A DNA stretch of 64,000 nucleotides from Pseudomonas sp. Tri1 (lineage in GTDB: Bacteria > Pseudomonadota > Gammaproteobacteria > Pseudomonadales > Pseudomonadaceae): the NCBI RefSeq assembly GCF_017968885.1, contig NZ_CP072913.1:6426501-6490500 (forward strand), read 5' to 3'. Positions 36,451 to 48,948 of this stretch are shown here, piece by piece. The first letter of the stretch is position 1; every line of letters starts with the position of its first letter. The notes under the pieces are model-generated. The model did not search any database. It worked only from the letters and a program-made list of their open reading frames with translations, and had not been told where the DNA came from. Made by a program: the position numbers and the translations under genes.

Positions 36451-38091
36451 TCAGAGACGGAAACGGCCGACCAGGGTATTGAATGACAGGGCCAGGTTAG
36501 ACAGCTCCTGGCTCGACGCATTGGTCTGGTTCGCCCCAGCTGCGGTCTGGGTCGAGAGATCCTGGATATTCACCAGGTTGCGATCGACCTCCCGTGCCAC
36601 ATGGGCCTGCTCCTCCGAAGCCGTGGCAATCACCAGGTTACGGTCATTGATCTGCGAAATGCCGTCGGCGATCTGCTCCAGAGCCTCGCCAGTGGCCCGG
36701 GCCAGGCTCTGGGTCTCGGTCACCAGCGCCTGACTCTTGCCCATGGCATCGACCGCGCTGTCAGCCCGATCCTGGACTGCGTGGATCATGCTCTCGATTT
36801 CACCAGTGGACGCCTGGGTGCGCGCCGCCAAGGCTCGAACCTCGTCGGCCACCACGGCGAAGCCGCGACCCTGCTCCCCGGCGCGGGCGGCCTCGATGGC
36901 CGCGTTGAGCGCCAACAGGTTGGTTTGCTCAGCGATCCCACGGATCACATCCAGCACCTTGCCGATATCACGGACTTGCACCGCCAGATCCCTGACCAGC
37001 CCGGTGGACGAGGTGATTTCCAGGGTTGCAGTGTTGATCGCCTGCACCGCACTACGGGCCTGATCACGCCCATTGCTGGCTTGTGAACTGGTCGATTGCG
37101 AAGCCTGAGAAGTGGAGACCGCATTGCGGGCTACTTCCTCAACTGCCGAAGTCATCTCGGTCACGGCCGTGGCGGCCTGCTGGATTTCGTCATTCTGCCG
37201 GGTCAATGCACGACTGCCATCATCGGTGACGGCCGTCAGCTCCTCGGCGGCGGAAGCCAACTGGTCCGAAGCGCTGGCGATCTGCTGGATGGTGGTCTTC
37301 AAGCTCGCCTGCATATCGCCCAGGGCCTTGAGCAACTGGCCAGCCTCGTCGCGACTGCGGCTGCTGATGTGCTGGGTCAGGTCGCCTTGGGCGATGCGTT
37401 GGGCACAATCGACCGCCGCGGCGATCGGTCGACTGATCAGACGGCTGATAAACACGCCCAACAGCAGCGCGGCAATAAAGGCCACGACGATGCCGCTGTA
37501 CAACACAGTCTTGGCCGTCGTCTCCTGCAGCGTCGCGGCCTTGGCGTCTTCGCCGATCTGGCGGTCATTGGAGTCGATCATGATGGTCAACTGGTCCATC
37601 ACCTTGCGATAGGTCTTCTGCAGATCGCCCAGCAACAGAGTGCGACCGTTCTCCAGGTCGCCAGCCGCCATCATCGCCACATACTGCTGCACCATGGCCT
37701 GGTAGACCGGCCAATCGCGGGCCATCTGGTCACCGGCCAGGCGCTCGTCTTCAGCCAGGTTCCCTTTACGGTAAGCGGCAAAAGCCTGTTCGCTGGCCAA
37801 CTGGTTGGCTTTCATCGAGGCGAGAAACTCATCCTTCAGGCTCTGCGGCGCGTTGCCGGCGGTAGCGACATACAGCCGGTACATGTCGCGCGTCTGGCCG
37901 ACCGCCTTGGTCTTGGTCTGCGACGTGTTGGCGACCGAGACCAGGTTGTTGTTGAACACCCCCTGCAGGCGTGTCGACAGCGCGGAAACACCGCTGACGC
38001 CAAGCATGCCCACGGCGAGCGTGATCAACGCACAGAGGAAAAACGAGGTGATCAGTTTGGTTGATAATTTTGCGTCATTGAGCCAGTTCAT
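36451..38091 (-). CDS. Methyl-accepting chemotaxis protein (four-helix-bundle sensor)
   Basis: Chemoreceptor of 546 residues. A short cytosolic start and membrane helix 1 (about 12-32) precede a periplasmic helical domain of the four-helix-bundle type (33-190). Then come membrane helix 2 (about 192-212), HAMP, and the signalling domain with its hairpin tip [35 protein letters not shown]. No C-terminal CheR-binding pentapeptide is present. I chose the ATG at 38089-38091 because the longer frame adds 47 unrelated residues. The ligand is unknown. It is divergent from the dehydrogenase operon, so a sugar or polyol attractant is an untested idea. Confidence 0.92.
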
Positions 38092-38313
38092 CGGTGGATC
38101 CTCACGGGATGCTGGTCCAGCAGCCCTGCTATGTGTGCATTTCCCTGCCCCGCGTAACGCCAGGTAAAGGGCCTGTGTCCAGCCTCCATCGCCGCTGATG
38201 TGAACCTCGAGCAAGACGTCGTACAACATCACAAACGTACAAGCTATGTGCCCTGCTCGCCTTCAAACTTGATGGGGCGAACTCCTCGCTTTTTTGCCCA
38301 TTGCGCTCACAAC

Positions 38314-38514: not shown

Positions 38515-39939
38515 ATGCATCCGCAGAGGATGAGTCAGGCATTGCCCGACGTGCGCAAGGCCAGGCCCGTGAGGAATATGCTCGCAGGGTGTCTGACCCT
38601 GATAACGGTTAGCCTGGCAGCCCATGGCGAGACGCTCGACAGCAGCGCCTCGCCAGGCAAACGGCTGGCGGTGGCCGCCGATTGCGTGGCCTGCCATAGC
38701 ACCAGTGACGGCAAGCCGTTTGCCGGCGGTTACCCGCTCAACTCGCCAATGGGCGTCATCTACTCAACGAACATCACCCCTTCCAGGACCGCCGGCATCG
38801 GGCACTACAGCCAGGCAGACTTCGCCCGCGCCGTGCGCGATGGCGTGACCCCGGACGGCACTCGCCTGTACCCGGCGATGCCCTACACCTCCTACGCAAA
38901 AATGACCGACAGCGATGTCGCCGCCCTGTACCAGTACTTCATGCATGAAGTCGTACCGGTGGATACACCCAGCCCCAAGACCGAGCTCGACTTCCCGTTC
39001 AACATCCGTGCCTCGATGCTCGGCTGGAATGCCCTGTTCCATAGCCAGAAACGCTTCGAGCCGGATCCGGACAAGTCCGCGCAGGTCAATCGCGGCGACT
39101 ACCTGGTCAACGCACTGGCCCATTGCGACACCTGCCACACCCCGCGCAATGTCCTGATGGCAGCGGATAACGCCAAGGCGCTTTCCGGTGGTTCACTGGG
39201 CCCCTGGTATGCACCGAACATCACCTCGGACAAGACCAGCGGGATCGGTGCCTGGTCGAGAGATGAGCTCGTTGCCTACCTGCGCAGCGGCCATGTAGAG
39301 GGCAAGGCACAGGCGGCCGGCCCCATGGCCGAAGCGGTCGAGAACAGCCTGCAGTACCTTGGCGAAGATGACCTCAAGGCCATCGCGGCCTATCTGCTGC
39401 AGACCCCACCGATCGCTACCGGCGAGCAACAGGCCCGCCATACCTTCGGCCAGGCCTCGAACGACGAACTCAGCCTGCGTGGCGGCAAGCCGCAGGACAA
39501 TCCGGGCTGGCACATATTCAGCGGCACCTGCGCCAACTGTCACCAAGCCAACGGCGAGGGCACCCGTGAATATCCGTCGCTGTTCCACAACACCGCCACC
39601 AGTCGCCGCGACAACTTGATCGCGACCATCGTCTACGGCGTGCATCGCGAAGTCGACGGCGTGGCAATCGACATGCCGGCCTTCGGCCCCGATGCGCTGT
39701 TCACCGATCGTCTCGACGACCAGCAGATCGCCGACGTCAGCAACTACGTCCTGTCCCGCTACGGCAATGCCGGATTGAACGTGACTGCCGCCGATGTGGC
39801 ACAGGTGCGCGAAGGCGGACCCAAGGCCCCCATCGCTGTGTTGGCACGCTACAGCGCACCGGCACTGATCGCGCTCGGCCTGCTGATCCTCCTGGCGCTT
39901 TACAGGCTCAAGGCTCGTCGCCGGCAACAGGAGGCCTGA
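38515..39939 (+). CDS. Tri-haem cytochrome c subunit of membrane sugar/polyol dehydrogenase
   Basis: Periplasmic membrane-anchored cytochrome of 474 residues with three CXXCH haem sites: CVACH (Cys57, Cys60, His61), CDTCH (about 205) and CANCH (about 341). The signal peptide spans about 18-38, and one C-terminal helix (APALIALGLLILLALYRL) anchors it in the inner membrane. It resembles the cytochrome subunit of fructose, sorbitol and gluconate dehydrogenases, which passes electrons from the flavoprotein to ubiquinone. The ATG at 38515 has gaggag 9 bases upstream. It is the first gene of a three-gene operon, whereas in many such operons the cytochrome comes last. Confidence 0.92.
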   Translation: MHPQRMSQALPDVRKARPVRNMLAGCLTLITVSLAAHGETLDSSASPGKRLAVAADCVACHSTSDGKPFAGGYPLNSPMGVIYSTNITPSRTAGIGHYSQADFARAVRDGVTPDGTRLYPAMPYTSYAKMTDSDVAALYQYFMHEVVPVDTPSPKTELDFPFNIRASMLGWNALFHSQKRFEPDPDKSAQVNRGDYLVNALAHCDTCHTPRNVLMAADNAKALSGGSLGPWYAPNITSDKTSGIGAWSRDELVAYLRSGHVEGKAQAAGPMAEAVENSLQYLGEDDLKAIAAYLLQTPPIATGEQQARHTFGQASNDELSLRGGKPQDNPGWHIFSGTCANCHQANGEGTREYPSLFHNTATSRRDNLIATIVYGVHREVDGVAIDMPAFGPDALFTDRLDDQQIADVSNYVLSRYGNAGLNVTAADVAQVREGGPKAPIAVLARYSAPALIALGLLILLALYRLKARRRQQEA

Positions 39940-39942
39940 GCA

Positions 39943-40497
39943 ATGGAAACCTCAATGACTGACCAACACACGCCCGTTTCATCCTCATCCGCCCCTGGGG
40001 TGTCCCGGCGCAGCCTGCTGCGCGGCTCGATCACCCTCGGCCTGACAGCTCTGGTCGGGGGCCTCGGCCCTTGGCAATCGGTGATGGCCATGGCCGAGGG
40101 CGACCAGGACTTCATCACCCTGTCGCAATTCCTCGTCAGTCGCCCGGTCAACCCGGTCCTGGCGGCGCGCTACTACCGCGCCCTGAGCCGACGCGCACCG
40201 AACTTCAGTGGCAATGTCGGAGCCCTCAGGCAACTGGTCGACGGGCAGGGTTTCAAGCATGTGGATGAATACCTGGCCCAGCCCAACCCGGACCCATCGC
40301 TGAAAGCGACGGCCACCAGCATCATCTCGGCCTGGTACCTGGGCATCGTCGGCGAGCTCGCCGACGCCGAACTGATCAGCTACCGCGAAGCGCTGATGTA
40401 TCGCCCGACCCACGGCATCCTCATCATCCCAACCTACGGTGGCGGCCCCGACTCCTGGGGCACCAAGCCAGCCGACACTCAGGATTTCAAACTATGA
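39943..40497 (+). CDS. Sugar dehydrogenase small subunit (FAD-SLDH type), Tat-exported
   Basis: A 184-residue protein with a twin-arginine signal (SRRSLLRGSITLGLTALVGG, about 21-40), so the folded flavoprotein complex is probably exported as a unit with it. The mature part matches the small subunit of membrane sorbitol and fructose dehydrogenases (FLVSRPVNPVLAARYYRALSRRAPNFSGN...TSIISAWYLGIVG). It ends with the Trp/Gly-rich PTYGGGPDSWGTKP. It starts 3 bp after the cytochrome gene and overlaps the GMC gene by four bases. Confidence 0.9.
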   Translation: METSMTDQHTPVSSSSAPGVSRRSLLRGSITLGLTALVGGLGPWQSVMAMAEGDQDFITLSQFLVSRPVNPVLAARYYRALSRRAPNFSGNVGALRQLVDGQGFKHVDEYLAQPNPDPSLKATATSIISAWYLGIVGELADAELISYREALMYRPTHGILIIPTYGGGPDSWGTKPADTQDFKL

Positions 40498-42128
40498 GCA
40501 GCGTTGCTTACGACGCCGACGTGGTCGTCATCGGCTCCGGCGTGATGGGTGGCCTGATTGCCAGCGGCCTGGCCAAGGCGAACAAATCAGTGATCGTCCT
40601 CGAAGCGGGCCCACGGGTGAACCGCCGCGACATCGTCGAGACCTTCCGCAATGCGCCGGTCAAGCTCTCGCTGGCCAACGCCAAGCTGCAGGGTGCCGGT
40701 TCGCCCTATCCGAGCCTGCCCCATGCACCTTCCACCTATGGCGACTACCTGCAACAGGTCGGCCCGGTAAAGTACAACACCTCCTACCTGCGCGTAGTCG
40801 GCGGCACCACCTGGCATTTCGGCTCCTCGCTGTGGCGCATGCTGCCCAATGACTTTCGCCTCAACTCCCTCTACGGGCGCGGGCGCGACTGGCCGATCAG
40901 CTACGACGAACTGGAGCCTTTCTACGCCCGCGCCGAGACCGAGCTGGGCGTGTCCGGGGTCGACGGCCAGGATGAAAGCGGCCAGGGCGGTGCGGCCTAT
41001 CCACCGCGCTCGATCCCCTACCCAATGGAAGGCCTCAAGCCCAGCTACATGTTCAAGCGCCTCTCAAGCCTGTTGAGCAAGGGCGGCTACAACCCGATCC
41101 TCGAACCCAATGGTCGCGCCACCCGCCCCTATGGCAAGCGCCCGCCGTGCGCGGGCAACAACAACTGCAACCCGGTCTGCCCAATTGCCGCCAAATACGA
41201 CGGCTCGATGCATATCGACGAGGCCGAGCGCCACGGCGCCAAGGTCCTGGACAACTCGGTGGTGTATCGGATCGAGGCCGGCGAAGACGGCAAGATCACC
41301 GCGATCTGGTACATGCGCCCGGACAAGACCCAGCATCGCCTGACCGCCCGCTACTTCGTGCTGGCGGCCTACGGCATTGAATCACCGAAGCTGTTGCTGA
41401 TGTCCACATCCGAGCAATACCCCAACGGCATCGCCAATACTTCCGACCAGGTCGGCCGCAACCTCATGGACCACACTGGTGTGAGCATGAACGTGATGAC
41501 CAAGGAAGACATGTGGCCTGGCGAGGGGCCGACACAGTTGCTGGTGTACCTGAACAGCCGCGACGGCGCATTCCGCAAGGACTACCCAAGCTACAAGATC
41601 AAGGTGCGCAACACGGTGCCCACCTCGCAGATCACCACCAACCTGATCGCCAAGGGCGTGCTGGGTTCCAGGCTCGACGAACAGATCCGGCTGCAGTCAG
41701 CGCGCTCCTTGAACTGGGCGGTGGACTTCGAAACCCTGCCGCTGCCGGAAAACCGCGTCACGCCGAGCAAAACCCGCTTCGACGCGATTGGCCTGCCGGT
41801 ACCGGAAATCTACTACAGCGTTCCCGACTATTGGCATGCCGGCAAGGAGAAAGCCCTGGAGGACCTCAAGCAGTTCGCCCATCTGCTCGACGCCGACATC
41901 CTCAGTACCGACGTCAACTTCCAGAACCGCCAGCACATCATGGGCACCACCATCATGGGCGACGATCCGAAAAACTCGGTGGTCGACCGCGACTGCCGTA
42001 GCCATGACCACGCCAACCTGTTCATCGCTGGCACTAGCGTGATGCCGTCGTCATCCTGTGTGAACCCCACGCTGACAGGTGCCGCACTGAGCATTCGTAT
42101 CGCCGATCAATTGCTGAGGGAGGTGTAA
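40494..42128 (+). CDS. GMC flavoprotein, catalytic subunit of membrane sugar/polyol dehydrogenase
   Basis: FAD-dependent oxidoreductase of 544 residues. The FAD-binding GSGVMGG is at 14-20. The cysteine motif C-x5-C-x3-C at Cys219, Cys225 and Cys229 is the [3Fe-4S] site of FAD-glucose and fructose dehydrogenases. The C-terminal active region is SSCVNPTLTGAAL. It has no signal of its own, so export with the Tat small subunit is inferred. The substrate is not determined by sequence: sorbitol, fructose, glucose or gluconate are all possible. It is coupled to the preceding gene by an ATGA overlap and is convergent with the ethylene-receptor-like kinase. Confidence 0.92.
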   Translation: MSSVAYDADVVVIGSGVMGGLIASGLAKANKSVIVLEAGPRVNRRDIVETFRNAPVKLSLANAKLQGAGSPYPSLPHAPSTYGDYLQQVGPVKYNTSYLRVVGGTTWHFGSSLWRMLPNDFRLNSLYGRGRDWPISYDELEPFYARAETELGVSGVDGQDESGQGGAAYPPRSIPYPMEGLKPSYMFKRLSSLLSKGGYNPILEPNGRATRPYGKRPPCAGNNNCNPVCPIAAKYDGSMHIDEAERHGAKVLDNSVVYRIEAGEDGKITAIWYMRPDKTQHRLTARYFVLAAYGIESPKLLLMSTSEQYPNGIANTSDQVGRNLMDHTGVSMNVMTKEDMWPGEGPTQLLVYLNSRDGAFRKDYPSYKIKVRNTVPTSQITTNLIAKGVLGSRLDEQIRLQSARSLNWAVDFETLPLPENRVTPSKTRFDAIGLPVPEIYYSVPDYWHAGKEKALEDLKQFAHLLDADILSTDVNFQNRQHIMGTTIMGDDPKNSVVDRDCRSHDHANLFIAGTSVMPSSSCVNPTLTGAALSIRIADQLLREV

Positions 42129-42132
42129 GCGC

Positions 42133-43410
42133 TCAACCACTCGCCGCTCGCAGGGATTGGCCTTGGGCAAGCGCGAGCGGAAGCTCCAGGGTAAAGAGCG
42201 CGCCCTTGCCCGGCCCCGCGCTCCATGCCGTCAGCTCACCGCCCATCTCGTGGGCGGCCAGGATGCAGCTGTGCAGGCCGAAACCATGACCATCGGCACG
42301 CGTCGTGAAACCGTGCTCGAACACCCGCGCGAGATTGTCCGGCGAAATCCCCTCGCCGTTGTCCTCGACCTCGATCCGCACATGCGTGTCGCCCACTGCT
42401 TTCAGGCGCAGGGTAATCCGGGACGGTCGCTCCACGCCCGAGCCAAGCGCCTGCTTGGCGTTGTTGATCAGATTGACCAGGATCTGCAGCACTTTGTGCT
42501 TGTCCAGGGGCATCGTCGGAATATCGCTGAACTCCTTGACCAGCGTGACCTGATGGCGGGCCAGGGACACATCGCAGATGCGCACCACATCCTCGAGCAG
42601 CTCTCGTAGCGAACCCGGCTCCAGCACGCTGGAGTTGCCGGCATAGGACTGCTGGGTGGCGACAATCTCCTTGATATGGTCGATGCTCCTGGTCAGCTTC
42701 GTCAGCTCGCCGATCATGCTCTGCTCCTCGGCTGCCAGCGCCTCGGCCAGCTTGCCGAGATAATCCGGTAGCGCGCGGCCTTTCGGATCGCTGCTGATGA
42801 AGTCACCCAGATCATCAGGATGCTCCCTCATCAATTGAACGACCTTGGCGACTCCCGGCCTTTTGGATGTATGCACTTTCTCGTACAGGACCTGGGCTGA
42901 CACATTGACGCTATTGAGCACATTGCCCACGTTATGCAGCACATTGGTGGCGATTTCTGCCATGCCGGCCCGGCGCGCCGTGGTGACCAGCTCGGCCTGC
43001 GCCTCGCGCAACTCGTCGTTGACCTTGGCCAGTTGCTGCGGGCTGGGGATCTTCAGGGCCGCGGGCACCAGCCGGACCAGCAGGATGGCGGTGATCACCG
43101 AGGCAATCGCGGTGATCACCTTGACCAGCGCCGACAGCCAATAATAGGGCTGCCAGATGGTCAGGATCTCCATCACGTGACTGGTCCCACAGGCCAGGAT
43201 AAACACGCCAAAGGCCGTCAGCATCCAGTCAAAAGGTACGTCCTTGCGCCGGTGGATGAAGTAGATCAGCGTGAAGGGAATGCTGATATAGGAAAGGGTG
43301 ATCAGGCCATCGGCGATCACATTGGTCCACAGCAGGTCCGGGCGCCACATATAGCAATGCCCGTGGGGCATGAAGCGGTTATCGGTCAACAGAGCCAGCA
43401 GATCGTTCAT
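42133..43410 (-). CDS. Ethylene-receptor-like sensor histidine kinase (ETR1-type N-terminal domain)
   Basis: A 425-residue membrane kinase. The N-terminal three-helix domain (about 26-120) aligns without gaps to the ethylene-binding domain of plant ETR1. Asp34 corresponds to ETR1 Asp25, Tyr41 to Tyr32, Ile44/Pro45 to Ile35/Pro36, Phe67 to Phe58, Ile71 to Ile62, and the copper ligands Cys74 and His78 to Cys65 and His69. A short coiled coil (125-150) leads straight to the kinase: H-box with His159 (NVLHNVGNVLNS), N-box (309-319, LVNLINNAKQAL), DNGEGI (350-355) and GHGFGLH (374-380). There is no GAF, PAS or receiver domain, and no response regulator gene is adjacent. Ethylene and Cu(I) binding are inferred from conservation only. 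Confidence 0.9.
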   Translation of the reverse strand: MNDLLALLTDNRFMPHGHCYMWRPDLLWTNVIADGLITLSYISIPFTLIYFIHRRKDVPFDWMLTAFGVFILACGTSHVMEILTIWQPYYWLSALVKVITAIASVITAILLVRLVPAALKIPSPQQLAKVNDELREAQAELVTTARRAGMAEIATNVLHNVGNVLNSVNVSAQVLYEKVHTSKRPGVAKVVQLMREHPDDLGDFISSDPKGRALPDYLGKLAEALAAEEQSMIGELTKLTRSIDHIKEIVATQQSYAGNSSVLEPGSLRELLEDVVRICDVSLARHQVTLVKEFSDIPTMPLDKHKVLQILVNLINNAKQALGSGVERPSRITLRLKAVGDTHVRIEVEDNGEGISPDNLARVFEHGFTTRADGHGFGLHSCILAAHEMGGELTAWSAGPGKGALFTLELPLALAQGQSLRAASG

Positions 43411-46784: not shown

Positions 46785-48761
46785 TCAGCGGAACCGATCA
46801 ACCTCTTGGCGCAGGTCTTGGGCCAGTTTTTCCAGTTCCTTGGCGGTGACCGCCAGGTTCGAGACCACCTGGCGCTGTTCGCTGTTGGCCATGGCGATGC
46901 TTTGCAGGTTGCTGCTGAGCAGGGTCGCAGTGCTGCTTTGTTCCTGGGTGGCGGTGGTGATGGCGGCGAACTGTTGGCCGGCAGAACGGCTCTGCTCATC
47001 GATGCGCGCCAGGGCCGAGGCCACGTTGGCGTTGCGCGAGAGGCCTTCCTGCATCAACAGGTTGCCCTGTTCCATGGTGCTGATGGCGTTGCCGGTTTCC
47101 TGCTGGATGCTGTGGATCATGCCGGAAATTTCGTCAGTGGCCTGGCGGGTACGGGATGCCAGGCTGCGCACTTCGTCAGCCACCACGGCGAAACCACGCC
47201 CCTGCTCACCGGCACGGGCGGCTTCGATGGCGGCGTTCAAGGCCAGCAGGTTGGTCTGCTCGGCAATCGAAGTGATGACACCGACGATACCGCCGATTTC
47301 CTGGGAACGCTGGCCCAAGGTGTTGATCACCGTAGCAGTGCTGTTCAACGCGCTGGCGATTTGCTCCAGGGACGACGAAGCCTCATCCATCGATGTACGA
47401 CCGATCTGAGTCTGCTGGGCGTTTTCCTGGGCCAAGCGCTGGGTGTTGCCCATGTTATCGGCGATATCCAGCGAGGTAGCGCTGAACTCTTCCACCGCGC
47501 CAGCCATGCTGGTGATTTCCCCGGACTGCTGCTCCATCCCTTCGTAAGCCCCGTTGGACAACCCGGACAGGGCCTGGGCCCGGCTGTTGACCTCTTGCGA
47601 GGCTTTGCGAATGTGCTCGACCATGGTCGACAGGGCCTGGCTCATCTGGTTGAAAGCGCGAGCCAGTTGGCCGATTTCGTCATGGCTCGACACATTCAGA
47701 CGCACGCTCAGGTCGCCAGCGCCCAACGCTTCGGCCTGGCGCACCAGGTCTCCCAATGGCGCCAGCTTGCTGCGCAGCAGCCACATGGCCGCACCGACCG
47801 CCAGCAACATCGCCAACAGGCTGCCAATGGCCAGTTGCGTACCGACGCTCCAGGTCACGGCACGGATTTCAGCTTTCGGCATGCTTGCCACGACCGCCCA
47901 CGGCCCGCCTGTAAATGGCACGGCCACGCTGTAGAAGTCTTCGGCGGTATCGCTCCAGAACGCCCCTTTACCCGGTTTCTTGACCAAGCCAACGATGGTA
48001 GTAGCAGCTTGGTCCAAGGCTTGGACGCCGGCCGGTGGCACCAACCATTTGTTTTGCTCGTCCAGCAAGGCCAGCGAACCGGTCTGGCCGATGCGGAAGC
48101 GCTTGAGGTTCTCGAACTGCGCGTTCTGCGCGTCGGTGTAATCGAATCCAACGTACAACACGGCGATTACCTTACCGCTGCTATCACGTACGGGTGTGTA
48201 CTGCGACATGTAGAAGCGCCCAAAGAGCAAGGCTCGACCAATGTAGCTCTGCCCACTCATCACCGGGCCATATGCCGGACCGGCCCGGTCGAGCATGGTA
48301 CCGATGGCCCGCGTACCGTCCTGCTTGCTCAGCGACGTGCTGATACGAATGAAATCGTCACCGCTGCGCACGAATACCGTGGCCACCCCGGCGGTTGTTT
48401 GCTTGAATTCGTCAACTTCCTGGAAGTTGTTGTTCAGCACCTGGCTGCCCAGGTTCAGGCTCGGCGTCTGGACGCCCGCCACCGCAACCATCTGATCCGG
48501 GTTCACGCTCAGGCCCGCACTGAAACGCTTCTCGAACAGCCCGCTCAACCGCTGGGTGCTTTCACGCAAAGTCTCGTGGAAGGTGTTGAGCTGGTCGGCC
48601 ATCAGTCGCGCTTCGCTGGCCAGATGTTCTTCACGGGTGGCAAGGTTGGCAGTATCCAGCGAACGCAGGGCAAAGACAGTGCTGCCGGAGATCACGACCG
48701 CCAGTATCACGGCAAGGGCAAGGCCTAGCTGTGAGGCGATTCGGGCACGAGGTTGAGACAT
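46785..48761 (-). CDS. Methyl-accepting chemotaxis protein with Cache sensor
   Basis: Chemoreceptor of 658 residues. Membrane helix 1 (about 8-32) is followed by a large periplasmic Cache_3-Cache_2-type domain (35-305; [48 protein letters not shown]). Membrane helix 2 (about 310-335), HAMP and the signalling tip [35 protein letters not shown] complete it. I chose the ATG at 48759-48761; the longer frame adds 18 charged residues. The ligand is unknown; related Cache sensors often detect small organic acids or amino acids. Confidence 0.93.
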
Positions 48762-48948
48762 GACGGCTCCTGGCCGAGAGACCGGATCATCCTGATCACG
48801 TCGCGCACTCGGCATTTTATTCGGGTGTATGTAGGTAGGCTCTTTCTAATACGAAAGTACTATCTCCAACACATTCGGCGGCGAAACCGAATACTTGAGC
48901 GGTTTAGGCGGAATAACGCCAAGTGGCTAGCACGGCTCCTGCATCGTT

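Follow-up and report, generated by a model that had tools for sequence, protein, structure and literature searches.

The plant ethylene receptor ETR1 carries a GAF domain. Proteins with an ethylene-binding domain are also known in proteobacteria and cyanobacteria, as described in PMC11819568 and PMC7700396. AzoEtr1 of Azospirillum brasilense binds ethylene and alters biofilm formation (PMC11819568). SynEtr1 of Synechocystis (slr1212), in which an ethylene-binding domain is likewise joined to a kinase, acts on biofilm and phototaxis and doubles as a light receptor (PMC11819568, PMC7700396). The residues named for ethylene binding are Asp25, Cys65 and His69 of AtETR1 (PMC11819568), and changing the conserved aspartate to asparagine is reported to lower affinity about 100-fold (PMC13012798). 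PcrK-PcrR of Xanthomonas campestris works in a similar way, leading from a plant hormone through a histidine kinase to a cyclic di-GMP regulator, but its ligand is cytokinin, perceived via a CHASE domain, and it does not belong to the ETR1 family (PMC7700396). Pseudomonas itself is reported to show chemotaxis to ethylene (Kim et al. 2007, cited in PMC4686702), a response attributed to chemoreceptors and not to an ETR1-type kinase. We found no ETR1-type receptor kinase of Pseudomonas in the open-licence literature, which does not prove its absence.

The gene described here lies in the window, i.e. the whole stretch of 64,000 nucleotides of Pseudomonas sp. Tri1 that was analysed (Table 1). Its product echoes plant ETR1-type receptors in its ETR1_N profile family and ligand residues. 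With AzoEtr1 it shares an equal Asp-Cys-His-Lys spacing, a C-terminal histidine kinase and a plant-associated proteobacterial host, but AzoEtr1 also contains PAS, and a regulator made of a receiver alone is probably co-transcribed with it (PMC11819568), whereas in the Pseudomonas protein neither PAS nor GAF was found, the kinase belongs to the HNxGN class and its gene has no adjacent regulator. The membrane domain is also the sole sensor found in it, unlike in SynEtr1. Judged by its sequence, the protein adds a member to a family of bacterial ethylene receptors that is already known; what is new is its output half and the partner proposed for it.

Table 1. Location of the kinase gene, its predicted domains and key residues, and neighbouring genes in the window
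Feature	Position	Strand	Basis or remark
ETR1_N-HNxGN sensor histidine kinase gene, 425 aa	42133..43410	-	ORF; Pfam ETR1_N and HATPase_c; homologs
PHGxCxxW motif (PHGHCYMW, aa 15-22)	43345..43368	-	in 23/29 loci found with the Pfam model
ETR1_N domain, aa 26-121	43048..43335	-	Pfam, 127.7 bits; three predicted helices
Asp34, equivalent to AtETR1 Asp25	43309..43311	-	alignment; numbering as given in PMC11819568
Cys74, equivalent to AtETR1 Cys65, predicted Cu(I) ligand	43189..43191	-	Cys in 47/47 family members aligned
His78, equivalent to AtETR1 His69, predicted Cu(I) ligand	43177..43179	-	His in 46/47 aligned
H-box LHNVGNVLNS, aa 158-167, presumed phospho-acceptor His159	42910..42939	-	common to four paralogs
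HATPase_c catalytic domain, aa 303-413	42172..42504	-	Pfam, 72.6 bits; ATP-binding motifs conserved among paralogs
Cytochrome c, small FAD-SLDH-type subunit and GMC oxidoreductase genes	38515-42128	+	convergent with the kinase gene
Two chemoreceptor genes, 4HB and Cache_3-Cache_2 sensors	36451-38232, 46785-48815	both -	Pfam

The sensor domain and its predicted copper site

ORF analysis identifies a real gene on the minus strand starting with the ATG at 43410, and AGGAGG stands six bases 5′ of this codon. An earlier note had proposed an ethylene-receptor-like kinase and a search with the ETR1-family profile. The protein scores 127.7 bits with Pfam ETR1_N, whose cut-off is 27 (E = 2.1e-37), and the match spans positions 2-97 of the 97 in the profile, which is far above chance. 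Together with the conservation of the ligand residues, this match gives good support to the assignment as an ethylene-receptor-type sensor kinase. Profile search found just one ETR1_N copy, the window gene, in the 6.71 Mb genome, and no match in any of 14 control genomes. An AlphaFold2 model of low confidence (mean pLDDT 62) places helices at 24-54, 60-86 and 90-119, and hydrophobic peaks, the first two of them weak, coincide with these three segments. Residues 1-130 found no match among solved structures at E up to 10, and no NCBIfam family exceeded its own cut-off among the best 25 of the 69 families matched. Among the best 120 homologs listed in public databases, identity is 75-93%. PF25487 has already been assigned to homologs there, usually under the name ‘sensor histidine kinase’, and one record of the P. 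brassicacearum NFM421 homolog reads ‘putative incomplete histidine kinase’.

All eight residues previously claimed (Asp34, Tyr41, Ile44, Pro45, Phe67, Ile71, Cys74 and His78) were found in sequence and alignment, and are invariant across the 20 Pseudomonas sequences aligned; those other than the Asp, Cys and His (Tyr, Ile, Pro, Phe, Ile) are taken as the earlier note named them. The claimed spacing is also correct, the Asp-Cys distance of 40 and the Cys-His distance of 4 being equal to those of AtETR1 (D25/C65/H69) and AzoEtr1 (D35/C75/H79). The alignment with ETR1 had been described as gapless, which is true for helices 1 and 2 alone. The helix-3 lysine stands at His+19 here (Lys97) and in AzoEtr1 (K98), but at His+22 in AtETR1 (K91), so that the plant receptor has three more residues in the loop joining helices 2 and 3. 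We infer that the strain may sense plant ethylene. Elsewhere in the family, proteins of two species of one genus (L079/L126 and L080) carry an ETR1_N domain with Arg replacing the His copper ligand, and are candidates for a changed ligand.

The PHGxCxxW motif precedes helix 1 directly and lies outside the Pfam ETR1_N match. By eye, it is present in 23 of the 25 loci where neither the Cys nor the His ligand is lost, and in none of the four lacking one of them, although one of these four keeps AHGACLLW; many of the loci are close kin, so these co-occurrences are not independent events. The count is based on loci found with Pfam, whose profile match begins after the motif, because the 47-member alignment includes seven non-Pseudomonas loci from a scan using the pattern MPHGHCYM and is therefore biased for this N-terminal motif. 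AtETR1 is not known to carry a PHGxCxxW motif. The motif may form a second metal site; alternatively, it could make a disulphide or hold a dimer together. It offers a new handle on copper delivery to ethylene receptors.

The HNxGN kinase half and its candidate receivers

The predicted output domains of a histidine kinase, HATPase_c and the H-box His, are both present, the latter despite the lack of any Pfam HisKA match in the kinase. Between ETR1_N and HATPase_c, Pfam detects nothing at E up to 0.01, neither GAF nor PAS, so that the reported absence of a GAF domain between sensor and kinase holds. For residues 107-419, the genome contains four further kinases with 52-56% identity (E = 3e-96 or better), and the next-best match is at 1.5e-17. 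Two of these paralogs carry DAHL sensors, another a cache-type sensor (by eye, without Pfam match), and one is a 1248-aa hybrid. The hybrid (L055:3810-7556) displays an unusual module order, with HAMP, a HisKA kinase, a receiver and a C-terminal HNxGN kinase, and its gene adjoins a substrate-binding-protein-like gene (by eye).

The H-box had been regarded as atypical. Its letters are as described, but they are not an oddity of this gene: they mark a whole Pseudomonas kinase class, HNxGN, with the signature LHN(V/I)GNVLNS in ten aligned sequences. Among 47 ETR1_N proteins, HNxGN occurs in 20/20 from Pseudomonas and 0/27 from others; these others comprise seven named loci and 20 of the 28 phylum matches outside the window, and include one short ORF without kinase (L047). 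The combination of ETR1_N and HNxGN thus appears to be a Pseudomonas architecture so far. In a tree of 35 rows, the sensor domains of the eight Pseudomonas members form one clade (99/93), while the kinase tree did not separate one from several fusion origins of the Pseudomonas ETR kinases. In HisKA kinases the residue after the phospho-acceptor His is Glu or Asp; here Asn follows the presumed phospho-acceptor His159, and kinase activity could for this reason be weak. A dead kinase, as the HN box might suggest, is unsupported, since four paralogs have the same box with intact ATP-binding motifs.

None of the seven neighbour genes scanned encodes a response regulator, as the earlier note had stated. 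The genome search for an orphan regulator that it suggested did yield candidates through comparative genomics, REC-GGDEF-EAL proteins with a receiver of the type DDTPxIHxDF, although one adjoins the ETR gene in just 1/20 species. With species treated as independent and uncorrected for phylogeny, and with matches accepted by E-value rather than by checking motifs singly, this receiver type occurred in 10/10 genomes with a kinase-module match versus 1/16 without (26 genomes, Fisher 2e-6), and in 20/20 ETR genomes versus 9/24 sampled genomes without ETR1_N (Fisher 1e-5). Moreover, 27 of 29 receivers lie at most 10 kb from an HNxGN-type kinase and two near none; conversely, 10 of 22 HNxGN-type kinases lie at most 10 kb from such a receiver. 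Kinase class and receiver type travel together.

The single case of adjacency is genome G149, where the ETR gene stands tail to tail, with a 14-base overlap, with a gene for a 747-aa REC-PAS-GGDEF-EAL protein of the DDTPxIHxDF type. At E up to 1e-50 this genome has a single HNxGN-type kinase, and at E up to 1e-20 a single receiver of this type; the two are this adjacent pair. Kinase and GGDEF/EAL regulator, a possible pairing of the PcrK-PcrR kind, are adjacent in 1/20 ETR genomes and distant in the window genome. There, three receivers lie in a cluster at C1:5416044-5424405, beside a DAHL HNxGN kinase at C1:5422136, with genes for REC-PAS-GGDEF-EAL, REC-GGDEF-EAL, cytochrome-peroxidase-like (by eye) and REC-kinase proteins. 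The closest match to the G149 regulator in the window genome is a 763-aa protein of this cluster (66% identical over 742 residues), encoded far from the window kinase gene. Its GGDEF is intact and its EAL site degenerate, whereas in the second window-genome regulator, of 624 aa, EAL is intact and GSDEF replaces GGDEF; the G149 regulator keeps both intact. The four receivers inspected all retain the phospho-Asp and Lys motifs.

Because of the class-receiver association, the G149 pair and its 66% identical homolog in the window genome, cyclic di-GMP appears the most likely output. We slightly favour a pairing of the ETR kinase with DDTPxIHxDF receivers in the window strain, but the main partner of its three receivers may be the DAHL-sensor kinase beside them.

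Distribution, neighbourhood and ACC deaminase

Of 298 Pseudomonas species sampled, 20 have ETR1_N. The sample taken across the phylum comprised 398 genomes, of which 29 match, counting the window, 28 of them over the family cut-off; the weakest phylum matches (L081-L083) seem to be degenerate or spurious. Holders with a species name include P. brassicacearum, P. kilonensis, P. thivervalensis, P. corrugata, P. mediterranea, P. frederiksbergensis, P. tehranensis and P. citri. A comM match adjoins the ETR gene in all 16 named Pseudomonas loci, and glnK-amtB stands beyond this pair in 14; in the other two (L030, L034) a dehydrogenase operon fills that side and glnK is absent from the fetched stretch. 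Where the ETR gene is absent from a species, 17 comM loci were compared: all contained comM, 15 had glnK in the stretch and none an ETR gene. In three more species, copies of 61-72% identity lie at other sites, two by gyrB-recF-dnaN and one near chemotaxis genes (by eye).

The seven window neighbours scanned encode a cytochrome c, two dehydrogenase subunits, ComM, DUF4432 and two MCPs. The cytochrome c and dehydrogenase genes occupy this place in just 2/16 named relatives (L030, L034), so that this neighbourhood is variable, and chemoreceptor genes stand on either side of the kinase region. The kinase frame is interrupted in P. corrugata (L032) and G124, possibly by decay or sequencing error. 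In P. mediterranea (L035, 3542-5299), an extra ORF lies within the comM match by the ETR gene, possibly an inserted element.

ACC deaminase, scored as TIGR01274 over cut-off in the same 298 Pseudomonas genomes (38 positive), was found in 11/20 genomes with ETR1_N versus 27/278 without (Fisher 2.6e-6, uncorrected for phylogeny); the window genome has it at C1:880748-881755. Among the 44 genomes with a comM match at least 85% identical to that of the window (139 searched, 130 matched, six of the 44 partial), the counts were 4/7 versus 1/37 (Fisher 0.0012). As nine of the 20 ETR species do not have the enzyme and species are not independent, we consider this association a lead only.

Proposed signalling route and its alternatives

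In our model, the three helices would hold Cu(I) via Cys74 and His78, and ethylene would bind that copper. Asp34 and Lys97 would couple the copper site to the helix continuing into the kinase. On binding, the HNxGN kinase, which follows the sensor directly, would change its activity. It would exchange phosphate with the DDTPxIHxDF receivers encoded elsewhere, at the cluster described above. Since two of these carry GGDEF-EAL, ethylene could thereby tune cyclic di-GMP and, through it, the formation of biofilm or attachment to roots. The domain, its residues, the kinase class and the link across genomes between this class and the receiver type are established here. For the first step of the model, ethylene on Cu(I), the basis is what is known of the family (AzoEtr1, SynEtr1); for the last, it is the association seen in genomes, which is direct in one species but indirect in the window strain. 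We consider ethylene and copper binding by the sensor quite probable, and the complete route from receptor kinase through receivers to cyclic di-GMP evenly balanced.

The same receptor could instead respond to copper or to another Cu(I)-binding molecule (CO, acetylene, another alkene), ethylene being incidental. The conserved residues are indeed those of a Cu(I) site, a second His/Cys motif precedes helix 1 in 23 of the 29 profile-found loci, and sequence alone does not single out ethylene. Yet the residues named for ethylene binding in PMC11819568 are kept, AzoEtr1 with its equal spacing binds ethylene according to the same source, and none of the seven neighbour genes scanned resembles copper handling, so we hold this explanation to be distinctly unlikely. 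That the domain has lost ethylene binding and the gene is a drifting relic seems very improbable: the frame is broken in one species (G124; P. corrugata locus L032), but open in 19 of the 20 Pseudomonas genomes with the gene, and the eight ligand-site residues do not vary in their sequences.

An ethylene receptor could also have an output other than cyclic di-GMP, with a different orphan regulator as its partner, or with phosphatase action predominating owing to the HN H-box. Such a reading would accommodate the 19/20 ETR genomes where no such regulator adjoins the gene, the Asn after the phospho-His and the DAHL paralog already beside the receivers. It fits poorly with the strong association of kinase class and receiver type, the adjacent single kinase and single receiver of G149 and the intact ATP-binding motifs, and we regard it as somewhat unlikely. 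Our preferred reading remains the ethylene receptor acting on cyclic di-GMP. An extension of it, in which Pseudomonas with ACC deaminase also measure ethylene through the HNxGN receptor, and in which PHGxCxxW is a second, so far unrecognised metal site of bacterial ethylene receptors, tuning or loading the copper centre and absent from plant receptors, is tentative and rather doubtful.

Few root bacteria have been studied as well as Pseudomonas, some of which use ACC deaminase to lower the ethylene of plants. A sensor closely matching ethylene receptors, attached to an unusual kinase whose likely partners are linked to biofilm, suggests that these bacteria may also measure this plant hormone. 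With candidate regulators named, the part of the pathway still missing becomes open to test. If true, an ethylene receptor wired to cyclic di-GMP would explain directly, in a genus that is easy to work with, how a hormone can guide the colonisation of roots.
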